From assembly GCA_026413865.1 (NCBI GenBank), contig JAOAKB010000015.1:1-35438 (forward strand): a stretch of 35,438 nt of DNA. The letters are read 5' to 3'. The notes below the pieces were generated by a model. The model had not been told where the DNA came from and did not search any database. It was given only the letters and a program-made list of their open reading frames with translations. The DNA is from Nitrososphaeria archaeon. Lineage in GTDB: Archaea > Thermoproteota > Nitrososphaeria > JACIWG01. A program made the translations under genes and the position numbers. Positions 6,738 through 27,268 of this stretch are shown one piece after another. Position 1 is the stretch's first letter; every line of letters begins with the position of its first letter.

Positions 6738-7550
6738 ATGAATTCAAAAGTTTGCTTAATATCCTATACTCCAAAAATTGAAAGATTATGTGCTGCAGCT
6801 ATGAGAAGTTGTTATTCCAATAAAGCCGCTCATGAACTTTATCTTGATGAAGAAAATTTTCCACAATCGACAGTAGAGAAGCTTATTAATAAGGCAATAG
6901 AACTTGGCCATTACAGTATACTAGAGCATGGCGTTCTAACCTTTTCTCTTCAAGCAGTTAGTAGAGTTTTAACACATCAACTTGTTAGACATAGAATGGC
7001 GAGCTTTTCCCAACAAAGCCAAAGGCATGTGAATATTATTGAAGATAAGGAATGGTATATTAAACCAAATACACTAAAAGAGCATAAAGTAGAAGTTAAA
7101 TTAGATGACACAAAATTGGTTATATCTTATGATGATTTCATGAAAATATCGGCTGAATATTATAAAATGCTTTTAGAAAACATAAATAAAGAAGATGCAA
7201 GATTCATATTACCCAATGCTACATTAACCAACATAACTTTAACTGCAAATCCGAGAGAATTAAGGCACATATATAGTCTACGATGTGATCCTTCAGCACA
7301 GTGGGAGATAAGAGATGTATGCTGGGTCATGCTTGCACTTTCTTACCTTATTGCACCAAACATTTTTTCAACATTGGATGCGCCTGCAAAAAACGCTAAT
7401 GATGTTTTATCAAAGCTAGAAAAATTAAAAGCTATAATTAATGAACAAAGAAGTTATTTCGAAAAATTGGATTCTGGCAAAGTTTTTGAGTTAAATTTGA
7501 AAGAATTTGAATTAGAACATACAGTAAAGGGTTTGATAGTAAAGCTTTAA
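6738..7550 (+). CDS. thyX: FAD-dependent thymidylate synthase
   Basis: Converts dUMP to dTMP using methylenetetrahydrofolate (or a modified archaeal folate) and reduced FAD. The family signature RHR-x7-S is complete at residues 84-94 (RHRMASFSQQSQR). The upstream SILEHGVLTF and VSRVLTHQLVRH helices and the downstream RCDPSAQWEIRDV segment, which lies in the nucleotide/flavin site, are also intact. The length of 270 residues is slightly above the usual 220-260. It is followed 128 bp later by the ribonucleotide reductase, so two DNA-precursor enzymes sit together. Promoter: TTTTTATAA at 6702-6710 with a palindrome just after it. No ThyA is seen in the window. Confidence 0.95.
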   Translation: MNSKVCLISYTPKIERLCAAAMRSCYSNKAAHELYLDEENFPQSTVEKLINKAIELGHYSILEHGVLTFSLQAVSRVLTHQLVRHRMASFSQQSQRHVNIIEDKEWYIKPNTLKEHKVEVKLDDTKLVISYDDFMKISAEYYKMLLENINKEDARFILPNATLTNITLTANPRELRHIYSLRCDPSAQWEIRDVCWVMLALSYLIAPNIFSTLDAPAKNANDVLSKLEKLKAIINEQRSYFEKLDSGKVFELNLKEFELEHTVKGLIVKL

Positions 7551-7678: not shown

Positions 7679-10600
7679 TTGTCATATCCAGTGCCTAGAG
7701 TAAAAAAAGTTATTAAAAGGGATGGACGCGTTGTTGATTTTGATGCATCTAGAATTGAAAATGCTGTAAAAAAAGCTATGATTAGTGTTGGAAAATATAA
7801 CAAAGAAAGTTTGAGAAAAGTAGTTCAACATGTTTTAAAGGTTGTTAATGAGAAATTTGGGGAAGCTGAAACATATCCTCACGTAGAAGAGATACAAGAT
7901 ATAGTGGAGTTAGCTCTTGTAAAATATGGTCTCTATGAAGTTGCAAAAGCCTATATTCTTTACAGAAGGGAAAGAGAAAATATTAGAAAAGAAAAGATGA
8001 TTTTACTTGAAAAAGATTATGTTGATGAAGTTGATAAGAAATTAAGTTTGAATGCTATAAGGCTTATTGTTTCAAGATATCTTTTAAGAAATGAGCAAGG
8101 CAAGCTTATAGAAGACCCTAAAGGAATGTTTAAGCGTGTTGCAGCACTAGTTGTCATACCCGACATATTACATGACAATGAAGTTTTTTCAAAGGAAGGA
8201 AATTTATCCCCGCATCCCTTTGAGCAATTTAATTTTGAGGAATGGTGCAACAAAGTCGGTTTAGGTAAGAATAGTAATGGTTTCACATTCACATGGAACA
8301 AGCATCATCTTGAAAGAATGAAAGCATTGTATGATGAATTAAATAATGCGGGTAAAATGAAGGTTCCATGGAGCAAGTTCTGGAGCATGCTCTTAGAAGG
8401 AAAGTTCGAAAAATACTGCCAAAATTTCCATGAATATTATAATTTAATGGTTGAAAAAAGATTTCTTCCAAATTCTCCAACTTTATTTAACGCTGGTGCA
8501 AGGTTAAGCCAGCTTTCTGCATGCTTTGTTCTAGACGTCGATGATAGTATTGACTCGATTATGGATACCGCAAAAGATGCTGCACTAATCTTTAAGTCAG
8601 GAGGAGGAGTTGGCATAAACTTTTCAAAACTAAGACCAGAAGGTGATACAGTATTTTCAACAGGAGGAGTAGCATCAGGTCCAACCAGCTTTATGCAAAT
8701 AATTGACAAAGTTACAGACGTTATTAAACAGGGTGGAAAAAGAAGAGGCGCAAACATGGGTATACTAGAAATATGGCATCCAGACATAGAAAAATTCATT
8801 GCATCAAAAGGTGAAGAAGGGAAACTTGTAAACTATAACCTTTCAGTACTAGTAACCCCTGATTTCTGGAAATATTATGAAGAAGGAAAACCATATCCAT
8901 TGAGAAATCCAAGAGATGGGAAGGTCTGGAAAGAAGTTAACCCAAAAACACTTTTCCACCAAATTGCTCAAATGGCATGGAGAACAGGAGACCCTGGAGT
9001 AATCTTCTTAGACCATATAAATAGAAGAAATATACTCAAAAAAGCATTAGGAGAAATAAGAACAACAAACCCATGCATTTCAAAAGAAACTAGAGTGTTA
9101 ACACCAGACGGTTGGAAAACAGCCCTTGAAATCTTTGATCAAGCAAAAAAAGATGGTAATGTAAATAAAATTGTTATAGGAGATAAAGAAATGGATGCTT
9201 TTAAGATAAGTATTGTTACGATGGCGGAAAAAGGGATCGTATACCAAACTACTCATAACGAGGTACTTGAACTAATAAAACCTAAGACTGTAGAAGCTTG
9301 GATTTTGTGCACAGGAAGTAGAAGGGGCTTCAAAATCGAGACAGAGGAAGGATATGAAATAACTGTTACACCTGAACATCGTTTTCTAACCTTAAAAGGT
9401 TGGAAAGAGGCTAAAGACTTAGAGGTTGGTGATCAAATAGTTTTAGGCCGACTTCATCCTTATTATGTAAACCAAACATATAAGGGTGAAATAAATCTTG
9501 ATCCTGACATTGCATTCGCACTAGGATGGCTAGTAGGTGATGGTGGATTTAACAAACATTATGTCGCATGGTATCTTGGCCCCAATGATAAAATGGCAGA
9601 AGAAAGGATAAGAAGAGGAATAGAAAAATTGGGTGGAAATCCCCATTCACACACGTATACACTAAGCGTAAGTGAATATAAAATTCAGTACAATAGTTCC
9701 ACTAAAGTGTACAAGGAACTAGTAAGATTGTTAGGTGATACCATAGAAAAGGAAAGAGATAGAATAATACCAAAGATTGTGTGGAAATTAAGTTTAAACA
9801 CATTAACATCCTTTTTGAAAGGTCTATTTACAGCGGACGGTTATGTTGATAATGATAAGGCAATAAGATTAACAAGCTCTAGCCTAAAGCTTCTTAAGGA
9901 AGTTCAAGTTCTCCTGACAACCCTCGGAATTTATTCTAGAATTTATAGAAGACCTTATACAAAACAGTTTACTTATAATGCAAAAGACGGCAGTAAAAGA
10001 GTCTATAAAACAAAGGAATATTATGAATTAATAATAAACGGATACAGTCGCAAAATTTTTAAAGAACTAATAAGTTTCGAAAATAATGAAAAACAAGAAA
10101 AATTAATATTAGATAATATAAAAAGAGACCCAACATTAGCAGAGATAAAATCTATTAAAGAGGTTGAGGAAAACGAATTTTATGATTTTATCGTCCCCGA
10201 GTATAACAATTATATAGCTAATGGATTAATAAATCACAACTGTGGCGAAGAGCCTTTATATCCTTATGAATCATGTAATCTTGGGTCAATTAATGTTTAC
10301 GCTTTTGTTAGGGAAGATAATACTTTTGATTGGGACGAATTTAGAAAAACTGTTGCGATCGCTTTAAGTTTTCTTGATAACATTATAGATGTTAACAAGT
10401 ATCCTACAAAAAAGATTGAAGATCGTACAAAACGTAGTAGGAAAGTAGGTTTAGGCTTTATGGGCCTAAGTGATGCCCTCTTCGCTTTAAGAATACCTTA
10501 TAATAGTGAAGAAGGATTCGCTTTCATTAGAACATTAACAGAAAACTTAACCTATTATGCAATGAAAGCTTCAATTGAAAGGGCTAAAGAAAGAGGTGTA

Positions 10601-11488
10601 TTCCCATTATATGAAAAATCAGCTTACGTGGATGGTGAAATGCCATTTGAAGGATACTATAAAAGAGAAATCTGGACATTAGATTGGAACAAGATAGTGG
10701 ATGAAATAAAGGTACATGGGATTAGAAACGCTGAAGTCACAACTGTTGCACCAACAGGATCCATTTCCATGATATTTGATGTCTCGTCTGGAATTGAACC
10801 ACAATTTGCCTTAGTTTACGAGAAAAGAGTTACTGTTGGAAGATTCTTTTATGTTGACATAGAATTCGAAAAAGCGTTGAAGGAGAGAGGATTATATGAT
10901 GAAAAGATTTTAAAAAAGGTTGCTGATAATGGAGGCTCTTTACAGGATATTGATGAAATTCCAGAAGATATGAAGAAAATATTCCTTGTAGCATATGATA
11001 TACCATGGTGGGACCATATAAGAGCACAGGCAGAAGCACAGACTTGGATATGTGCATCAATAAGCAAAACAGTTAACATGCCCAAATGGGTTACAGTAGA
11101 AGACGTTGAAAAAGCATATCTATTCGGTTATAAAATTGGATTAAAAAGTTTAACAATATACCGGGATACTTCAAAAAGCATTCAAGTACTTGTTACACCT
11201 TCACAAAGACAAGGCACATATGCTACAATAACAGAAAATAAGACAATAGACATTATGAAAAATCTTGGAATAGATGTAACCAATATATTAGGCAAAAAAG
11301 TTGTAGAAGAAACTTTAAAAACATACAGGTTACTAGAGGAACCTAAACTTCCAACAGAAGAAAGAGAAGCAATAAAAAATAAGAAGAAGCTTGAAACATG
11401 CCAAGACTGTGGAAGTAGGAATCTTATATTCCAGGATGACTGCATAAAATGCTTAGACTGTGGATGGGTGGCGTGTCCTACATCATAA
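7679..11488 (+). CDS. nrdJ: adenosylcobalamin-dependent (class II) ribonucleotide reductase with intein
   Basis: Reduces ribonucleotides to deoxyribonucleotides with a B12-generated thiyl radical. The 1269-residue precursor is 880 residues of reductase plus a 389-residue intein (466-854). The reductase has an N-terminal ATP-cone (about 8-100, starting VKKVIKRDGRVVDFDASRI), then FLPNSPTLFNAGARLSQLSA with the first redox Cys (SACFVLDVDDS), and the catalytic NP/CGE site that the intein splits. ESCNLGSINV, GLGFMGLSDALF, the phosphate-binding PTGSIS and a C-terminal Cys-rich zinc-ribbon-like tail (CQDCGSRN, CIKCLDCGWVAC) follow, as in NrdJ. The start is TTG at 7679; TTTTAAAAA at 7637-7645 would give a leader of about 10 nt. 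There is no separate small subunit, as expected for class II. Neighbour thyX supports a role in dNTP supply. Confidence 0.95.
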   Translation: MSYPVPRVKKVIKRDGRVVDFDASRIENAVKKAMISVGKYNKESLRKVVQHVLKVVNEKFGEAETYPHVEEIQDIVELALVKYGLYEVAKAYILYRRERENIRKEKMILLEKDYVDEVDKKLSLNAIRLIVSRYLLRNEQGKLIEDPKGMFKRVAALVVIPDILHDNEVFSKEGNLSPHPFEQFNFEEWCNKVGLGKNSNGFTFTWNKHHLERMKALYDELNNAGKMKVPWSKFWSMLLEGKFEKYCQNFHEYYNLMVEKRFLPNSPTLFNAGARLSQLSACFVLDVDDSIDSIMDTAKDAALIFKSGGGVGINFSKLRPEGDTVFSTGGVASGPTSFMQIIDKVTDVIKQGGKRRGANMGILEIWHPDIEKFIASKGEEGKLVNYNLSVLVTPDFWKYYEEGKPYPLRNPRDGKVWKEVNPKTLFHQIAQMAWRTGDPGVIFLDHINRRNILKKALGEIRTTNPCISKETRVLTPDGWKTALEIFDQAKKDGNVNKIVIGDKEMDAFKISIVTMAEKGIVYQTTHNEVLELIKPKTVEAWILCTGSRRGFKIETEEGYEITVTPEHRFLTLKGWKEAKDLEVGDQIVLGRLHPYYVNQTYKGEINLDPDIAFALGWLVGDGGFNKHYVAWYLGPNDKMAEERIRRGIEKLGGNPHSHTYTLSVSEYKIQYNSSTKVYKELVRLLGDTIEKERDRIIPKIVWKLSLNTLTSFLKGLFTADGYVDNDKAIRLTSSSLKLLKEVQVLLTTLGIYSRIYRRPYTKQFTYNAKDGSKRVYKTKEYYELIINGYSRKIFKELISFENNEKQEKLILDNIKRDPTLAEIKSIKEVEENEFYDFIVPEYNNYIANGLINHNCGEEPLYPYESCNLGSINVYAFVREDNTFDWDEFRKTVAIALSFLDNIIDVNKYPTKKIEDRTKRSRKVGLGFMGLSDALFALRIPYNSEEGFAFIRTLTENLTYYAMKASIERAKERGVFPLYEKSAYVDGEMPFEGYYKREIWTLDWNKIVDEIKVHGIRNAEVTTVAPTGSISMIFDVSSGIEPQFALVYEKRVTVGRFFYVDIEFEKALKERGLYDEKILKKVADNGGSLQDIDEIPEDMKKIFLVAYDIPWWDHIRAQAEAQTWICASISKTVNMPKWVTVEDVEKAYLFGYKIGLKSLTIYRDTSKSIQVLVTPSQRQGTYATITENKTIDIMKNLGIDVTNILGKKVVEETLKTYRLLEEPKLPTEEREAIKNKKKLETCQDCGSRNLIFQDDCIKCLDCGWVACPTS
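9074..10240 (+). mobile_element. LAGLIDADG-endonuclease intein in the ribonucleotide reductase
   Basis: Protein-splicing element of 389 residues (precursor 466-854). It starts with Cys (CISKETRVLTPDG, block A), has the block B T-x-x-H as Thr564-Pro-Glu-His567, and ends with block F (FYDFIVPEYNNYIANG) and block G (INHN) before Cys855. Two dodecapeptide motifs of a homing endonuclease are present: LGWLVGDGG from residue 615 and LKGLFTADGY from residue 713. Splicing joins TTNP to CGEEPL, the canonical reductase NPCGE. All nucleophiles (Cys1, penultimate His, terminal Asn, Cys+1) are intact, so splicing is probably active. Both endonuclease motifs keep an acidic residue, so the endonuclease may be active too. 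Confidence 0.95.
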
Positions 11489-18418: not shown

Positions 18419-19441
18419 TTGGGAGCTAGACTTTCACCATTGGTTAAGACAAAAAAGATAAACCTGTCTACTTTATCAAATAAAATAGTAGCTTTTGATG
18501 CAAATAATTTACTCTACCAATTTTTAGCACTTATTAGAATACCTAATGGTACACTTTTCAAAGATCATACTGGGAGAATAACATCCCACTTGTTAGGTGC
18601 TTCCTTAAGAATTACGAGATTAATGGCCGATTATAACGTAAGACCAATAATGGTTTTTGATGGCGCACCAAATATCCTGAAAATGAAAGCGCTTGAAGAA
18701 AGGAAAAAACAGAGGACTAAAGCTTTTAAGGAATGGAAAGAAGCGATAGAAGAAGGAGACCTTAAAAAAGCATTTTCTAAAGCTGTTGTTTCTGCAACCT
18801 TAAGTAAGGAACTTATAGAAGATGCAGTAAGCATGTTTAAGTTAATGGGAATTCCTATAATTCTTGCTCAAGAAGACGCTGAGGCACAAGCCTCTTACAT
18901 ATGTGAAAGAAATGATGTATGGGCTGTTGCTACACAAGATTATGATGCTCTACTTTACGGTGCTCCTCGAATCGTAAGGTATGTCACTATTCATGGTACA
19001 GAATTTCTTCCATCAAAGATGATGATTAAACCTTTAGTACCTGAACTTATATGTTTGGAGGAAACTTTAAGGTTCCTTGAATTGAGTAGAGAACAGTTAA
19101 TTGATGTTGCAATCTTAAGTGGAACAGACTTCAACAGGGGTGTACCAATGATTGGGCCGAAAAAAGCTTACAATCTAATAAAAAAATATGAGTGCATAGA
19201 AAAGATTCCAGATAATAAAATTAGGGAAAAGATAGGTAATTTTAAAGAGATACGGCAATTATTCTTGCAGCCTAAAGTAACTTCTGAATATTCAATAGCC
19301 TTTAAAAAGCCTGAAATAGATGAACTAACAAAATTTTTTAGACAAAGAGATTTTTCAGAAAAGAATATAGACAAAATAGTTGAAAGACTTACTAAATTTT
19401 ATAATTATATTGAAGGTCCAACATTAAAAAAGTGGTTTTAA
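18419..19441 (+). CDS. fen: flap endonuclease 1
   Basis: Structure-specific 5' flap nuclease for Okazaki-fragment maturation and repair; 340 residues, normal for archaea. The start is TTG at 18419, giving Met-Gly-Ala (the family begins G-x-x-L). Metal ligands in place: Asp27 (AFDANN), Asp81 (VFDGAP), Glu152 and Glu155 (QEDAEAQ), Asp174 and Asp176 (TQDYDALL), plus SGTDFNRG. The helix-hairpin-helix region is GVPMIGPKKAYNLIKKY. The C-terminus PTLKKWF is a PCNA-interacting box. It converges with the DUF72 gene with only 10 bp between stops. Confidence 0.95.
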   Translation: MGARLSPLVKTKKINLSTLSNKIVAFDANNLLYQFLALIRIPNGTLFKDHTGRITSHLLGASLRITRLMADYNVRPIMVFDGAPNILKMKALEERKKQRTKAFKEWKEAIEEGDLKKAFSKAVVSATLSKELIEDAVSMFKLMGIPIILAQEDAEAQASYICERNDVWAVATQDYDALLYGAPRIVRYVTIHGTEFLPSKMMIKPLVPELICLEETLRFLELSREQLIDVAILSGTDFNRGVPMIGPKKAYNLIKKYECIEKIPDNKIREKIGNFKEIRQLFLQPKVTSEYSIAFKKPEIDELTKFFRQRDFSEKNIDKIVERLTKFYNYIEGPTLKKWF

Positions 19442-20708: not shown

Positions 20709-21428
20709 ATGAATAAAAAGGTAGAGAAAGGAGGCGTAGAGAGAACAGTATTTTATGATGAAAATAGATGGAAAATATTTAGAGAGAAAAGGGATATTGC
20801 AAAGAAACTTATTAAACTCTTACAGGACAATGGACTTTATTGCAGAACCTATGGAAGTATTGCAAGAGGAGATGTTAATAAAAATAGTGATATCGACATA
20901 TTTTTTACAGAATATGTTCCATCCTACAAAATCGAGTTTATACTAGAAAAGGAGTACACAATATATAGAAAAGAAGTAGTGCAAGCTACACCACGTTCAA
21001 CTCCAAAAGCATACATTTACCTTGACCCCTATGAGAAAATATGTATATCATTTCCCTTAGCCAAAATGCTAAAAAATGAAATAGAATTTTATGAATTTGG
21101 TGGAACAATCAATTTAAAGGAAATAGAAGATAATATTAGAAAAAAGGGTGTAAATAAAAGACTACTTCTAATAGTTCCTCAAGAATTTGGACACATAGAA
21201 AGGGCTATAATTGGAAAAGAGGTAGAAGTCGCTAGAGAATTAAATATTTCTCTAGAAACCATCATGGAAAGGGAAAGAGTATTAGGAAAAAGAGACGAGT
21301 TTGGACGTACTGGAACATTTGTAAAATTTAATATACCCCATCAAGATAGAATCGAGGAGACAATCTATAATTTTGCAGCAAAAAATTGGATGCTAAGAAA
21401 GATATTAAAGGAAAGAGGCTATTTTTAA
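20709..21428 (+). CDS. nucleotidyltransferase (pol-beta superfamily)
   Basis: Protein of 239 residues. An NTase domain is visible at about residues 30-110: GSIARGDVNKNSDIDIFF, with the G49-S50 phosphate loop and the metal-binding Asp61 and Asp63. A candidate third acidic residue is in IYLDPYEK. The C-terminal half contains PQEFGHIERAIIGKEVEVA and a GKRDEFGRTGTF segment, and is not recognised. It resembles the archaeal predicted nucleotidyltransferases that are larger than HEPN-partnered minimal NTases. No HEPN gene is adjacent. Substrate (nucleic acid, protein or antibiotic) unknown. It is divergently paired with the DUF72 gene. Confidence 0.8.
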   Translation: MNKKVEKGGVERTVFYDENRWKIFREKRDIAKKLIKLLQDNGLYCRTYGSIARGDVNKNSDIDIFFTEYVPSYKIEFILEKEYTIYRKEVVQATPRSTPKAYIYLDPYEKICISFPLAKMLKNEIEFYEFGGTINLKEIEDNIRKKGVNKRLLLIVPQEFGHIERAIIGKEVEVARELNISLETIMERERVLGKRDEFGRTGTFVKFNIPHQDRIEETIYNFAAKNWMLRKILKERGYF

Positions 21429-22627: not shown

Positions 22628-23839
22628 ATGTTTCCTAATAAGTTTAAGGATAAAGCTTTAAGAGCTGCAGAACTATTATCAAATTTTAAGGATGTTTTCA
22701 TTGTTCATCATGATGATGCTGACGGACTTGCTTCTGCCGCTATTCTTAAAATGGCTTTTGAGCGGAAAGAATTTAATGTTAGACTTGTTTGTTTAGAAAA
22801 GTTATTTCCAAAAATTGTTGGGTTATTGCATGAAAAAGATGTTCCCATTATTTATGCAGATTTAGGTTCACCCCATGCTGACCTTATATCTTTAAAGAAT
22901 GTTAAAGGAAAACCATCTGTAATTTTAGACCATCATGATCCCGTGCCTATTTCTAATCCTTCAGTTTTTGATTTAAATCTTGAATATTTTGGATTTAAAG
23001 GTGAAACTGATTTTTCCGGTTCCACACTTTCCTACCTTTTTTCTATAATATTAGATGAAAATAATTTTGACCTCTCATATCTTGCAATTGTTGGTTCCCG
23101 GGAAATACCTAGCGAATTTGCTGGAGTAAATACTATTGTTCTAGACACTGCTTTGAAAAATAATATTTTAAAAAAGAACAAGTATTTTAAAATAGTTAAA
23201 CTTGGGCTATCCGTCGATGAACTTTTTTCAGCATTACAAATTTTTGGCTCGGTAGGATATTATAGGGGTGGGCCAAGCGTTGGTGTTAAGGTTGCATTAG
23301 AAGGCTTATCTGATGAAAGTAAGAAATTTTTGGAAACATTAGAAAATGAAAGGAAAGTGGCTAATAAGAAATTGTTAGCAATATTATATAAGTATGGTTT
23401 GAAGGAAACTAGGTATATACAATATTTTGATTCAAATAATATGTTTAAGGGTATGGGTAGTAAGGTGCTTGGAAGCTTCTGCTCTTACATTTCATATCAG
23501 AAAAGGCTCATTAAACATGACAAGTACATTTTAGGCTATATGGATATACCGGATGAAATTCCAGGGTTTGAGAGACTTGGTGAAAGGCTTGTTAAAGTGT
23601 CTGTTAGAGTTCCTGAAGGATTAAAAAATGCTATTGAAGTGGACAAGATGCCTTCAGCTATTGACATATTAGTTGTTGCTGAGGATGTTGGAGGATTCTC
23701 TGATGGACACGAATTTGCTGCAAGCTGTATAGTGCCAAAGGAGCGGTTTGAAGATTTTATTGAAGGTTTAGATAAGTTTGTTAATGATTGGGTTGATGGC
23801 GTAAGGAGAGTTAAACGTAAGAAAATTGTGTTAGAGTAG
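22628..23839 (+). CDS. DHH/DHHA1 phosphoesterase, RecJ-like nuclease
   Basis: Single-strand-nuclease-type protein of 403 residues. The DHH domain motifs are intact: His28-x-Asp30-x-Asp32-Gly (VHHDDADGLASAA), Asp78 (YADLGSP) and Asp101-His-His (ILDHHDP). The DHHA1 substrate domain near the C-terminus has GGFSDGHEFAAS. Catalytic residues look complete, so it should be active, unlike the degenerate Cdc45-like forms. Archaeal RecJ-like proteins include GAN, which binds GINS in the replisome. Whether this is the GINS partner is not shown; no gins gene is adjacent. It converges on polB with 3 bp between stops. TTTTTATTTAT (22596-22605) is the likely promoter. Confidence 0.85.
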   Translation: MFPNKFKDKALRAAELLSNFKDVFIVHHDDADGLASAAILKMAFERKEFNVRLVCLEKLFPKIVGLLHEKDVPIIYADLGSPHADLISLKNVKGKPSVILDHHDPVPISNPSVFDLNLEYFGFKGETDFSGSTLSYLFSIILDENNFDLSYLAIVGSREIPSEFAGVNTIVLDTALKNNILKKNKYFKIVKLGLSVDELFSALQIFGSVGYYRGGPSVGVKVALEGLSDESKKFLETLENERKVANKKLLAILYKYGLKETRYIQYFDSNNMFKGMGSKVLGSFCSYISYQKRLIKHDKYILGYMDIPDEIPGFERLGERLVKVSVRVPEGLKNAIEVDKMPSAIDILVVAEDVGGFSDGHEFAASCIVPKERFEDFIEGLDKFVNDWVDGVRRVKRKKIVLE

Positions 23840-23842
23840 AGT

Positions 23843-26116
23843 TTATTGAAAGAAAGCCGTTAAGCCCAAGGTTGACTTCAAATCTGATTCTTTTATTCCA
23901 AAGACTTCTAAAATTCTCATGCAAACAGGTAAAACTTGTTTTTCAACATAATAGTTCCAGTCTATTTCGTTTAAATTTGCTTTAAAATATGGTTTAACTC
24001 TTGTATAAAGTCTTCCTGTTCCCTTGACTATAACATATCCGACTTTATCACCAGGCTGTATTTTCCAGCCCTCTCCAATAAGCTTTTTCGCAACTTCAAC
24101 ATGTGGTGCTGTAGCCTCATAATCTTCTAAAGATTTTGTAATCTGTTTCCATATTATTAGCTGCTTCAACGGAACTTTCTGACTTACTAAGTTATTTATG
24201 TGTCTTCTTGCAACATTAACACCTTCCTCTACACCAACTTTTAATATGGCTTCAACAACCTCTTTTTGAGCAAGTTTAGCAACCTCACTCCAGTCACCCC
24301 TTATTGCTTCAAGTCCAACAATTTCTATGGCACCATCATCCTTTAATCCAGCATACTTCTTTTTAGCCTCAGTAAATAGTACTGTCTTATATATTTTGTC
24401 AACCTTAACTTCTAATCCGAGAACATTTTCTACCCAATTTATTAGTTCATCTATTTTCTTATCATTTTTTATAAAAAGTGAATCTGTGTCACCATATACA
24501 ATTTTAAGTTTCAATTCTTCAGCCTTTTTTATGGCATTCAATATTATTTCCCTACCTAGGGCAGCTGTAACTTCAGCTATTTCTCTTGTATACCATCTTG
24601 CACCAGCCCATCCTGTATAACCATATATTGCGTTTGAGATAACCTTTACAGCTCTCTGTCTTGCATCCAATATTATTCTTTCTGGAGAATCTCTTGGAAG
24701 CATATCCATTTTCTCTCTTATTCTTCTCCTTTCCTCAATAAGCTTCTTAAGTGCATGTGGTAGAAAACCTTCTTTGTCGCTAAACCTTATAGCCGAATTA
24801 GGTACAATAATAGGCCCATTAGGGTCTATTGTATCAAAAGATATATTATATTTTATCATAAGAGAAGGATACATCGATCTAAAGTCGAGTACAACAATAT
24901 CCTTATGCAATCCTGGAGTTGGAGACTTTACCATACCACCCAAATATGATACGTGAACAACTTCTTTCCTTGATGGAATAACTTCATTTTTTTCTACAGC
25001 AAGTTTAGAAAGATAGTTTTCGACCCTAAAGCCTGTTGATGCAGTTAGAACATAGTCTGCAGGAATGCAAGTTAACTGTGAAAGAGAAAAGATGTATTCG
25101 TCAACAACCTTATATATTTCAAAAATACCTCTAGCTCTTTGAATCAAATACTTTAATACACGATCACGATCTTTAGACCACATTTCAGCCAATTCATATT
25201 CATCAACTGTATCATATTCTATTGGCAAGTTTAAGAATTGAGTAAACTCTTCTAAAGTCTCCAATTTTATTTCAGGAGTTTCCTCAGCAAGATCATATAA
25301 ATCAATATTCAATCTACCTCTAACCGATTGATGCCCATGGACACTACCTCTTGGCACAGAATTCAAACGTCCCAAACTAAATTCTAACCCAATCCTCTTA
25401 GACCTCTCGATAAGGAAGGGAATGATCTTTCTGTTACTATTAAACCCTACAATTACATCCGGATCAAATTCTTTAATAAAATTCAAGAAATTATTCACTA
25501 GTATTTTTTCTTCTCCAACAAAAACTTTTGAAATATTATCAGACGTTACTACAGAAATAGCTATTATAGAACTACGTTCTGGATCAGGTGAGCCTTTTTG
25601 GGAATAGAAGAAGGCGTCAAACGCTAAAATTTTAAGTTGAGGGAAATATGATCTCTGAAAGTCAACTGAAACTATTTTGTTCAACCTTAAAGTACGATAA
25701 CCATTAATGTAACCTTGGTCAACAACATCAAGGTTTATCCATGATGATGGAATGATACCTTTTTTGAAAATATATTGATTTGAAAATCTTATATCATCTT
25801 CAAAAATATTCACCAAATACTTGCATTGCCTTCTAATCTCTTCCACAATATCACTTGCTCTAGCATTACCTACAGAAATTTTCAGCAAGTTAAGTGACTT
25901 GCCTTTAAAATTTTTATTAACCGATTCAATACTTTTAACACCTTCTATAACTTTAATACTTTTTGCATCCTCTTCTTGATTACTTGATTGTACATAAAAT
26001 TCGACATTAAAACGATCATTAATAATAACACGTACCTCGTCCTCAGAAATAGCCCATATTTCGACTTCATTTGATTCTTCTTCACCAGAAACATCAATAA
26101 GCCAGTACAAAGGCAT
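23843..26116 (-). CDS. polB: family B DNA polymerase with degenerate exonuclease domain
   Basis: DNA-dependent DNA polymerase of 757 residues. The polymerase motifs are complete: motif A Asp411-Phe-Arg-Ser-Met-Tyr-Pro-Ser, motif B RQRAVKVISNAIYG (Lys491, Asn495, Tyr498) and motif C YGDTDS (Asp543, Asp545). The 3'-5' exonuclease domain is present as a fold but lacks catalytic acids. Exo I reads Asp167-Ala-Phe169 instead of D-x-E, Exo II reads NSNRKII with Ile231 where Asp is expected, and Exo III keeps Tyr323 but has Arg327 for Asp. Proofreading is therefore probably lost. The C-terminus STLGLTAFFQ fits a PCNA-binding box. There is no C-terminal zinc-cysteine module. It may be a second, specialised PolB (translesion or repair) rather than the replicase. 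Divergent from the GNAT gene. Confidence 0.9.
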   Translation of the reverse strand: MPLYWLIDVSGEEESNEVEIWAISEDEVRVIINDRFNVEFYVQSSNQEEDAKSIKVIEGVKSIESVNKNFKGKSLNLLKISVGNARASDIVEEIRRQCKYLVNIFEDDIRFSNQYIFKKGIIPSSWINLDVVDQGYINGYRTLRLNKIVSVDFQRSYFPQLKILAFDAFFYSQKGSPDPERSSIIAISVVTSDNISKVFVGEEKILVNNFLNFIKEFDPDVIVGFNSNRKIIPFLIERSKRIGLEFSLGRLNSVPRGSVHGHQSVRGRLNIDLYDLAEETPEIKLETLEEFTQFLNLPIEYDTVDEYELAEMWSKDRDRVLKYLIQRARGIFEIYKVVDEYIFSLSQLTCIPADYVLTASTGFRVENYLSKLAVEKNEVIPSRKEVVHVSYLGGMVKSPTPGLHKDIVVLDFRSMYPSLMIKYNISFDTIDPNGPIIVPNSAIRFSDKEGFLPHALKKLIEERRRIREKMDMLPRDSPERIILDARQRAVKVISNAIYGYTGWAGARWYTREIAEVTAALGREIILNAIKKAEELKLKIVYGDTDSLFIKNDKKIDELINWVENVLGLEVKVDKIYKTVLFTEAKKKYAGLKDDGAIEIVGLEAIRGDWSEVAKLAQKEVVEAILKVGVEEGVNVARRHINNLVSQKVPLKQLIIWKQITKSLEDYEATAPHVEVAKKLIGEGWKIQPGDKVGYVIVKGTGRLYTRVKPYFKANLNEIDWNYYVEKQVLPVCMRILEVFGIKESDLKSTLGLTAFFQ

Positions 26117-26902: not shown

Positions 26903-27268
26903 CTACTCTAATCTCATCAAAAGCCATTGATTTGTTCCTTTAAACTTTATAAGTTGATAAGTGCCTTTTAACTTTGTACCGTACAACTTAAATTTAATCT
27001 TATTTTCAGATCTTTCAATCAATTCATAAGTTCCTTTATCCCATATCAAAACTTTTCCAGCACCATATTCTCCCGGTGGAATTTCTCCTTCAAAATCTGC
27101 ATATTCTAGGGCATGATCTTCAACATTTATTGCAAGTCTTTTTATTCCACGTTCAAGAGGAATATCTTTAGGTATCGCCCACGATTTAAGGACACTATCC
27201 ATTTCTAACCTAAAGTCATAGTGATGATGTGTTGCCCAATGCTCTTGAACTACAAATATTGGACTCAT
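26903..27268 (-). CDS. free-standing LigD-type 3'-phosphoesterase (PE)
   Basis: DNA-end-healing enzyme that removes 3'-phosphate or 3'-ribonucleotides; 121 residues, one PE domain. All active-site positions known from Pseudomonas LigD (His42, His48, Asp50, Arg52, His84, Tyr88) are found with the same spacing: His10, His16, Asp18, Arg20, His52 and Tyr56, in VQEHWATHHHYDFRLE and VEDHALEYADFEGEIPPGEYGAG. The domain is usually part of DNA ligase D; free-standing forms are known in archaea. It follows alaX by 16 bp in the same direction, so they are probably one transcript. No ligase or Ku gene is in the window. Confidence 0.9.
   Translation of the reverse strand: MSPIFVVQEHWATHHHYDFRLEMDSVLKSWAIPKDIPLERGIKRLAINVEDHALEYADFEGEIPPGEYGAGKVLIWDKGTYELIERSENKIKFKLYGTKLKGTYQLIKFKGTNQWLLMRLE

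Follow-up and report, generated by a model that had tools for sequence, protein, structure and literature searches.

Most archaeal family B DNA polymerases (PolBs) proofread, and eukaryotic Pol alpha and Pol zeta have inactivated exonuclease domains. The stretch of DNA analysed here, 35,438 nucleotides long and hereafter called the window, encodes an archaeal PolB3 with intact polymerase motifs in which most of the exonuclease metal ligands are replaced. The question raised by this locus is whether the gene is broken or whether it specifies a polymerase that does without proofreading and, in that case, for which task. Relatives across an archaeal branch have the same loss. This argues for a long-standing division of labour among DNA-copying enzymes and against a broken gene. 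The best overall explanation, given a probability of about one half, is an active PolB3 whose exonuclease site would have been dismantled long ago, whose fold has been kept, and which would carry out short-patch synthesis.

State of the exonuclease and polymerase sites

The gene (23843..26116, minus strand) encodes a protein of 757 amino acids that is assigned to PolB3 by Pfam (DNA_pol_B, 3.5e-67; DNA_pol_B_exo1, 9.2e-19), by its best PDB match (PolB3 from Pyrobaculum calidifontis, 5mdn, 2.1e-172), by structural comparison and by its position in the tree. The strand, the length and the three residues singled out by the first-pass annotation (Phe169, Ile231, and Arg327) proved exact. In the alignment with 5mdn, the ExoI site, D-I-E in 5mdn, reads D167-A-F169 instead of D-x-E (25610..25618); the ExoII site, where 5mdn has the Asp of N-x-x-x-F-D, reads N-S-N-R-K-I231-I-P-F-L, with Ile for the catalytic Asp (25412..25441); and the ExoIII site, Y-x-x-x-D in 5mdn, reads Y323-L-I-Q-R327, with Arg for the catalytic Asp (25136..25150), all on the minus strand. 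Thus, three of the four metal ligands are replaced (E169F, D231I, and D327R) and D167 is kept, so that the earlier claim of a loss of all three motifs overstates the case for ExoI. The column of the replaced ExoI Glu has a conservation of 1.00 in crenarchaeal PolB3. Since only one of the four ligands is kept, the protein is classed as an exo-dead variant and not as a proofreading PolB3. A displaced copy of the ligands was considered as well, the candidate being D178-P-E180, and was rejected because PolB3s that retain D-x-E at positions 167-169 have this P-x-P loop as well.

The polymerase site, on the other hand, is as perfect as the first-pass annotation had described it. Motif A reads D411-F-R-S-M-Y416-P-S (24863..24886), motif B, K491-x3-N495-x2-Y498-G499, reads KVISNAIYG (24620..24646), and motif C reads Y-G-D543-T-D545-S (24479..24496), again on the minus strand, and the Y-x-G-(G/A) motif is canonical. 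At the C terminus there is a PIP-box-like tail, T-L-G-L-T-A-F-F-Q (23846..23872, minus strand), in which T749-x-x-L-x-x-F-F fits a PIP box except for the leading Gln. Tails of the form L-x-x-F-(F/M/L) are present in relatives, and the tail is disordered in the AF2 model. The PCNA tether that had been proposed is therefore plausible, as a prediction from a tail which resembles a PCNA box without being a complete one.

The AF2 model (mean pLDDT 89.4, pTM 0.84) holds the complete domain set, with the N-terminal, exonuclease-fold, and polymerase domains all present in a protein of the PolB3 size class (about 750-850 aa), and Foldseek aligns it with 5mdn over the entire length at a TM of 0.90/0.89. 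A block of the exonuclease fold, G-H-x-S-x-x-G-R-x-N-x-D-L, is conserved; as S258-x-x-G-H-x-S-x-x-G-R-x-N-x-D272 it is kept in both dead and live PolB3s, with several positions invariant, whereas invariance of the four ligands is confined to the live ones. In two congeneric genomes the orthologues are 83% and 74% identical and show the same ligand loss. Against these congeners, dN/dS is about 0.11-0.12 over the full gene and, by NG86, 0.10-0.14 for the exonuclease part and 0.06-0.09 for the polymerase part, low values that place both domains under purifying selection. The shared loss and the low dN/dS rule out an assembly error, chance or a pseudogene, and a viral origin was discarded, the best viral match being just 26% identical. 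Taken from model and sequence, the dead exonuclease domain appears to be kept as a scaffold. There is strong support from sequence, tree and predicted structure for reading the enzyme as a non-proofreading polymerase, and the protein is very probably proofreading-dead, conserved, and polymerase-competent.

A further position of this domain, column 256, holds His in 82% of dead PolB3s, is variable in exo-intact crenarchaeal ones, and holds Arg (R256) in the window's family. The His could possibly reflect a role gained by the dead exonuclease domain.

Spread and origin of the loss

A scan of named genomes together with 60 genomes spread over the phylum yielded 145 distinct PolB3s, in which the number of ligands kept is bimodal: all four in 86, three in none, two in one, one in 44, and none in 14, that is, 86 complete sites against 59 with at most two. 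In all 59 dead PolB3s the polymerase residues D411, Y416, K491, N495, Y498, G499, D543, and D545 are present. The replacing residues, for the most part hydrophobic or basic, differ from lineage to lineage, Arg being the commonest at ExoIII (29 of 59), and the ExoII Asp persists in 25 of the 59. Among the nearest 61 genomes searched, every PolB3 found (17/17) was without the ligands. Dead PolB3s occur in Bathyarchaeota, Korarchaeota (Methanodesulfokora), Brockarchaeota, Aigarchaeota (Wolframiiraptor), Geothermarchaeota, Conexivisphaera-like Thaumarchaeota (a label that is inferred), the window's own family, and a Methanomethylicota-like pair, while all four ligands are intact in the sampled crenarchaeal, Asgard, euryarchaeal, and DPANN PolB3s. 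Instead of the single odd enzyme that the first-pass annotation described, the protein is thus one member of an ancient exo-dead PolB3 clade.

This clade was recovered from alignments in which the exonuclease motif columns were omitted, with SH-aLRT 98 for 29 rows, SH-aLRT 99 for 45 rows, and UFBoot 100 / SH-aLRT 99 in a bootstrap tree that united 22 of 22 rows. The Methanomethylicota-like pair (L049 and L161) falls outside the main dead clade, no bootstrap tree supports a single origin, and the pair represents a second, independent loss of the exonuclease. Inside the main clade the sole ligand retained varies by sublineage, being the first ExoI Asp in Nitrososphaeria-side groups and the ExoII Asp in Bathyarchaeota. 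A single inactivation, after which the sublineages decayed separately, would account for this difference, and two inactivations within the clade are a possible alternative.

In a tree that included PolB1 and PolB2 rows, all 30 PolB3 rows form one clade (SH-aLRT 99) with the dead clade nested inside, and the window protein groups with neither PolB1 nor PolB2. A PolB1 identity is discarded by this position and by the separate exo-intact PolB1 of the same genome, and a PolB2 identity is excluded by tree position together with the intact motif C. The enzyme resembles archaeal PolB2 (Dpo2) in being a B-family polymerase with an inactive exonuclease domain that stands beside other PolBs. In a typical PolB2, however, motif C is altered, ExoIII is missing and iRadA and PPB2 genes lie alongside (PMC7544198, PMC11791011), whereas the window PolB3 has a D-T-D motif C, a full exonuclease fold and an aligned ExoIII region, and no gene for an inactivated RadA or a small helical PPB2 lies adjacent to it. 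In clade, length, domain order, fold, and polymerase motifs it is like the archaeal PolB3s from P. calidifontis (5mdn), Aeropyrum pernix and Sulfolobus (Dpo3). It differs from these characterised enzymes, which keep their exonuclease motifs, in the replacement of three of four ligands; the exonuclease of the A. pernix enzyme is weak, and conserved exonuclease motifs have been ascribed to PolB3 (PMC5911459).

Like the catalytic subunits of Pol alpha and Pol zeta, the enzyme combines an inactivated exonuclease with a polymerase activity, here a predicted one, and stands beside proofreading replicases. Unlike them, it is a single chain of 757 aa without a Cys-rich C-terminal domain, the sequence having no Cys cluster at this end, and its origin is independent, as the loss arose inside archaeal PolB3. 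In reviews, PolB2 is the sole archaeal group said to be inactivated, and PolB3 counts as a proofreading enzyme of replication or repair (PMC4104785, PMC7544198). No prior report of an exo-dead PolB3 clade was found in the literature searched, to which subscription journals did not belong, and an earlier report is possible.

PolD-bearing genomes of two families (f53 and f57; loci L157 and L159) have a PolB3 with four ligands that groups with crenarchaeal PolB3, perhaps acquired by gene transfer. In an ammonia-oxidiser-like family of the same class (f3), no PolB3-level match was found in its genomes.

Companion polymerases and gene neighbourhood

The window's genome encodes three PolBs, namely the dead PolB3, a PolB1 with four ligands, and an exo-less enzyme of 629 aa. 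The first-pass annotation had raised the matter of a second, exo-proficient PolB or a PolD in the same genome; the exo-intact PolB1 was found there, as in all 30 genomes checked, and PolD was found in sister genomes. The large subunit of PolD (DP2) is absent from the window's own assembly, which is 77% complete, and present in four of four searched relatives from its family, so that the absence is put down to incompleteness. Across 60 genomes, PolD is present in 28 of 30 with a dead PolB3 and two of 30 with an intact one (Fisher p 3e-12 as a strong raw association); independent tree pairs are too few (about 1.5 concordant and 0 discordant, of 8), and the association is mostly one shared ancestry. 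PolD presence was rejected as the explanation of the loss, since the exonuclease is intact in Euryarchaea (with PolD according to PMC4104785) and in Asgard rows, f53 and f57 combine PolD with an intact exonuclease, and another family (f5) is dead without DP2. Given the few independent pairs and these exceptions, PolD is at most permissive, and the other proofreading replicases are likewise seen as permissive rather than causal.

In f5 itself (G010, G013, G040, and G056) a DP1-type match occurs without a match to the DP2 N terminus, also in a 99%-complete genome, a pattern that resembles an inactivated DP1 group without DP2 (PMC7544198). The third PolB of the window's genome (L220, 4259-6145, minus strand) has an intact motif C, Y-G-D-T-D-S, and is also found in L221-L223. 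It forms a long branch separate from other PolB2-like rows, a RadA-like neighbour is not evident by eye, and it may constitute a separate PolB group.

The immediate neighbours of the window PolB3 are a DHH-family protein, a GNAT protein, and a LigD-type phosphoesterase. The DHH protein (22628..23839, plus strand) is RecJ-like, has 403 aa and is convergent with PolB3; it matches Pfam DHH at 9e-08 and RecJ_archaeal at 2.6e-44, the latter below the cut-off, and a PDB search finds it homologous to the structures of RecJ, GAN, and RecJ2. A DHH gene adjoins PolB3 or lies near it in 29 fetched loci, some of which are overlapping records of the same genome, and most copies retain the DDADG and DHH motifs. 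These loci come from dead and live lineages alike, so the adjacency is not specific to exonuclease loss, and a role of the DHH protein as a proofreader compensating in trans is disfavoured on the same ground. In Geothermarchaeota (L183-L189), seven of seven loci show a co-directional operon of PolB3, DHH protein and ATP-dependent DNA ligase, in which the genes are spaced by -52 to +19 bp (the ORF starts being approximate) and a ligase recognised by Pfam in two of the seven. In the window, the DHH gene is not co-directional with PolB3 and no ligase is adjacent.

Synteny with other PolB3 loci is conserved in that the DHH neighbour recurs together with a nucleotidyltransferase (20709..21428, plus strand; Pfam NTP_transf_2), a family that recurs close to PolB3 in 21 loci, some of them crenarchaeal. 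A FEN1-type flap endonuclease (18419..19441, plus strand; Pfam XPG_I 1.6e-21, XPG_N 7e-15), a possible partner, is encoded 4.4 kb away from PolB3. A Toprim protein, which we take to be DnaG, is the convergent neighbour of PolB3 in crenarchaea and Bathyarchaeota; dnaG has been reported in that neighbourhood (PMC4104785). The LigD-type neighbour in the window is a stand-alone 3'-phosphoesterase domain of 121 aa (26903-27268, minus strand), a 3'-end repair enzyme encoded 0.8 kb upstream of PolB3.

Proposed role and competing explanations

The specific role proposed, with some hesitation, is PCNA-held synthesis that fills gaps and displaces strands during lagging-strand maturation, excision repair, or both. 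Sequence and phylogeny support an ancient loss of the 3'-5' exonuclease ligands that was passed down a large clade, an intact polymerase centre, an exo-intact PolB1 in the same genomes, and PolD in sister genomes. With proofreading replication covered by PolB1 and PolD, PolB3 would then have become available for short-patch synthesis. With PCNA holding its C-terminal tail, the enzyme would fill gaps and displace the downstream strand, a displacement that should be favoured without idling or proofreading, and a flap or 5' nuclease (FEN1 or the neighbouring DHH protein) together with DNA ligase would finish the job.

A maturation or repair role is taken as the likeliest of the candidates because of the linkage to DHH and ligase genes and of the literature on strand displacement. 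A parallel is offered by the PolB from Thermococcus kodakarensis, a PolB3-group enzyme that also stands beside PolD, serves in strand displacement and Okazaki maturation, in which it is better than PolD, and tolerates an exo-dead allele at its native locus (PMC13136892); unlike the window PolB3, it proofreads, and Euryarchaeota are without PolB1 (PMC4104785). In Pol delta, inactivation of the exonuclease alone suffices for strand displacement without PCNA (PMC4417170). For pol gamma, on the contrary, the exonuclease is reported to be needed for ligatable ends, and the exo-minus enzyme can overrun nicks and leave unligatable flaps (PMC4557304), which would disfavour an Okazaki role unless flap cleavage is efficient. 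Somewhat more speculative is the extension of this role to the non-crenarchaeal TACK archaea, where the ancient dead PolB3, the RecJ-like DHH protein, and ligase might form a strand-displacing maturation or repair machine beside PolB1 and PolD. If true, this would be an independent parallel to the way in which eukaryotes divide the work between exo-plus replicases and the exo-minus Pol alpha and Pol zeta.

The main rival, considered unlikely, is a translesion or extender function similar to that of Pol zeta, in which a polymerase without proofreading extends mismatched or lesion-bearing primer ends. Extenders such as Pol zeta and archaeal PolB2 have typically lost the exonuclease (PMC11791011), as the sequence shows for the window PolB3. 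Moreover, deletion phenotypes of Sulfolobus PolB3 are damage-related (PMC8100216): the mutants are sensitive to 4-NQO, and the sensitivity is greater still in polB2 polB3 double mutants (PMC8100216, PMC7785828). However, the polymerase motifs and Y-x-G-(G/A) are canonical, with none of the remodelling of the active site seen in PolB2, the third, exo-less PolB could serve instead, no damage-response gene was seen beside the window PolB3, and the ligase gene that clusters with PolB3 in relatives hints at synthesis during maturation or repair. DHH adjacency and the PolB3-DHH-ligase operons are the reason why gap filling, Okazaki-type maturation, and repair are preferred. The translesion or primer extension role offered by the first-pass annotation is one option among several and gained no specific support.

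Primer extension in the manner of Pol alpha, in which the enzyme would elongate RNA or RNA-DNA primers from primase and hand them to PolD or PolB1, is improbable. It would match the exo-dead, B-family Pol alpha working beside exo-proficient replicases, given the PolB1 intact in 30 of 30 genomes and the PolD of sister genomes, but no primase gene was seen within the window, the C terminus has no Cys-rich part for binding a B subunit, and the adjacent Toprim/DnaG-type gene, although frequent, is common to exo-intact crenarchaea too.

Still less probable is relaxed selection, by which the exonuclease would have decayed, with no new role gained, in a PolB3 made dispensable once PolB1 and PolD replicate the genome. 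The absence of a PolB3-level match from the f3 genomes fits it, as does the ratio of exonuclease to polymerase divergence, which is 1.35-1.6 in dead PolB3s and about 1.0-1.4 in crenarchaeal ones. Decay nevertheless predicts pseudogenes and intermediate ligand counts, and three ligands occur in 0 of 145 PolB3s; polymerase residues are kept across a deep clade, residues of the exonuclease fold are invariant, and dN/dS is about 0.1 in both domains. A re-engineered exonuclease whose metals are held by other residues is hardly credible, despite the D167 kept here and the ExoII Asp of 25 of 59 dead relatives, as no substitute conserved acidic residues were found in the site and the residues now at the ligand positions, chiefly hydrophobic or basic, vary among lineages.

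The clade-wide loss of proofreading in PolB3, in major uncultured archaeal lineages that keep PolB1 and mostly PolD, indicates that B-family polymerases dedicated to exo-minus synthesis have arisen in archaea as well, alongside proofreading enzymes. The job of PolB3 when it is not the replicase becomes directly testable, the clade would be a natural source of exo-deficient and probably thermostable polymerases, and such enzymes should not be annotated as proofreading DNA polymerases.

Elsewhere in the window, an adenosylcobalamin-type ribonucleotide reductase of 1269 aa (7679-11488, plus strand) contains an intein with a LAGLIDADG domain, and a ThyX gene (6738-7550) is located just upstream of this intein-split gene.
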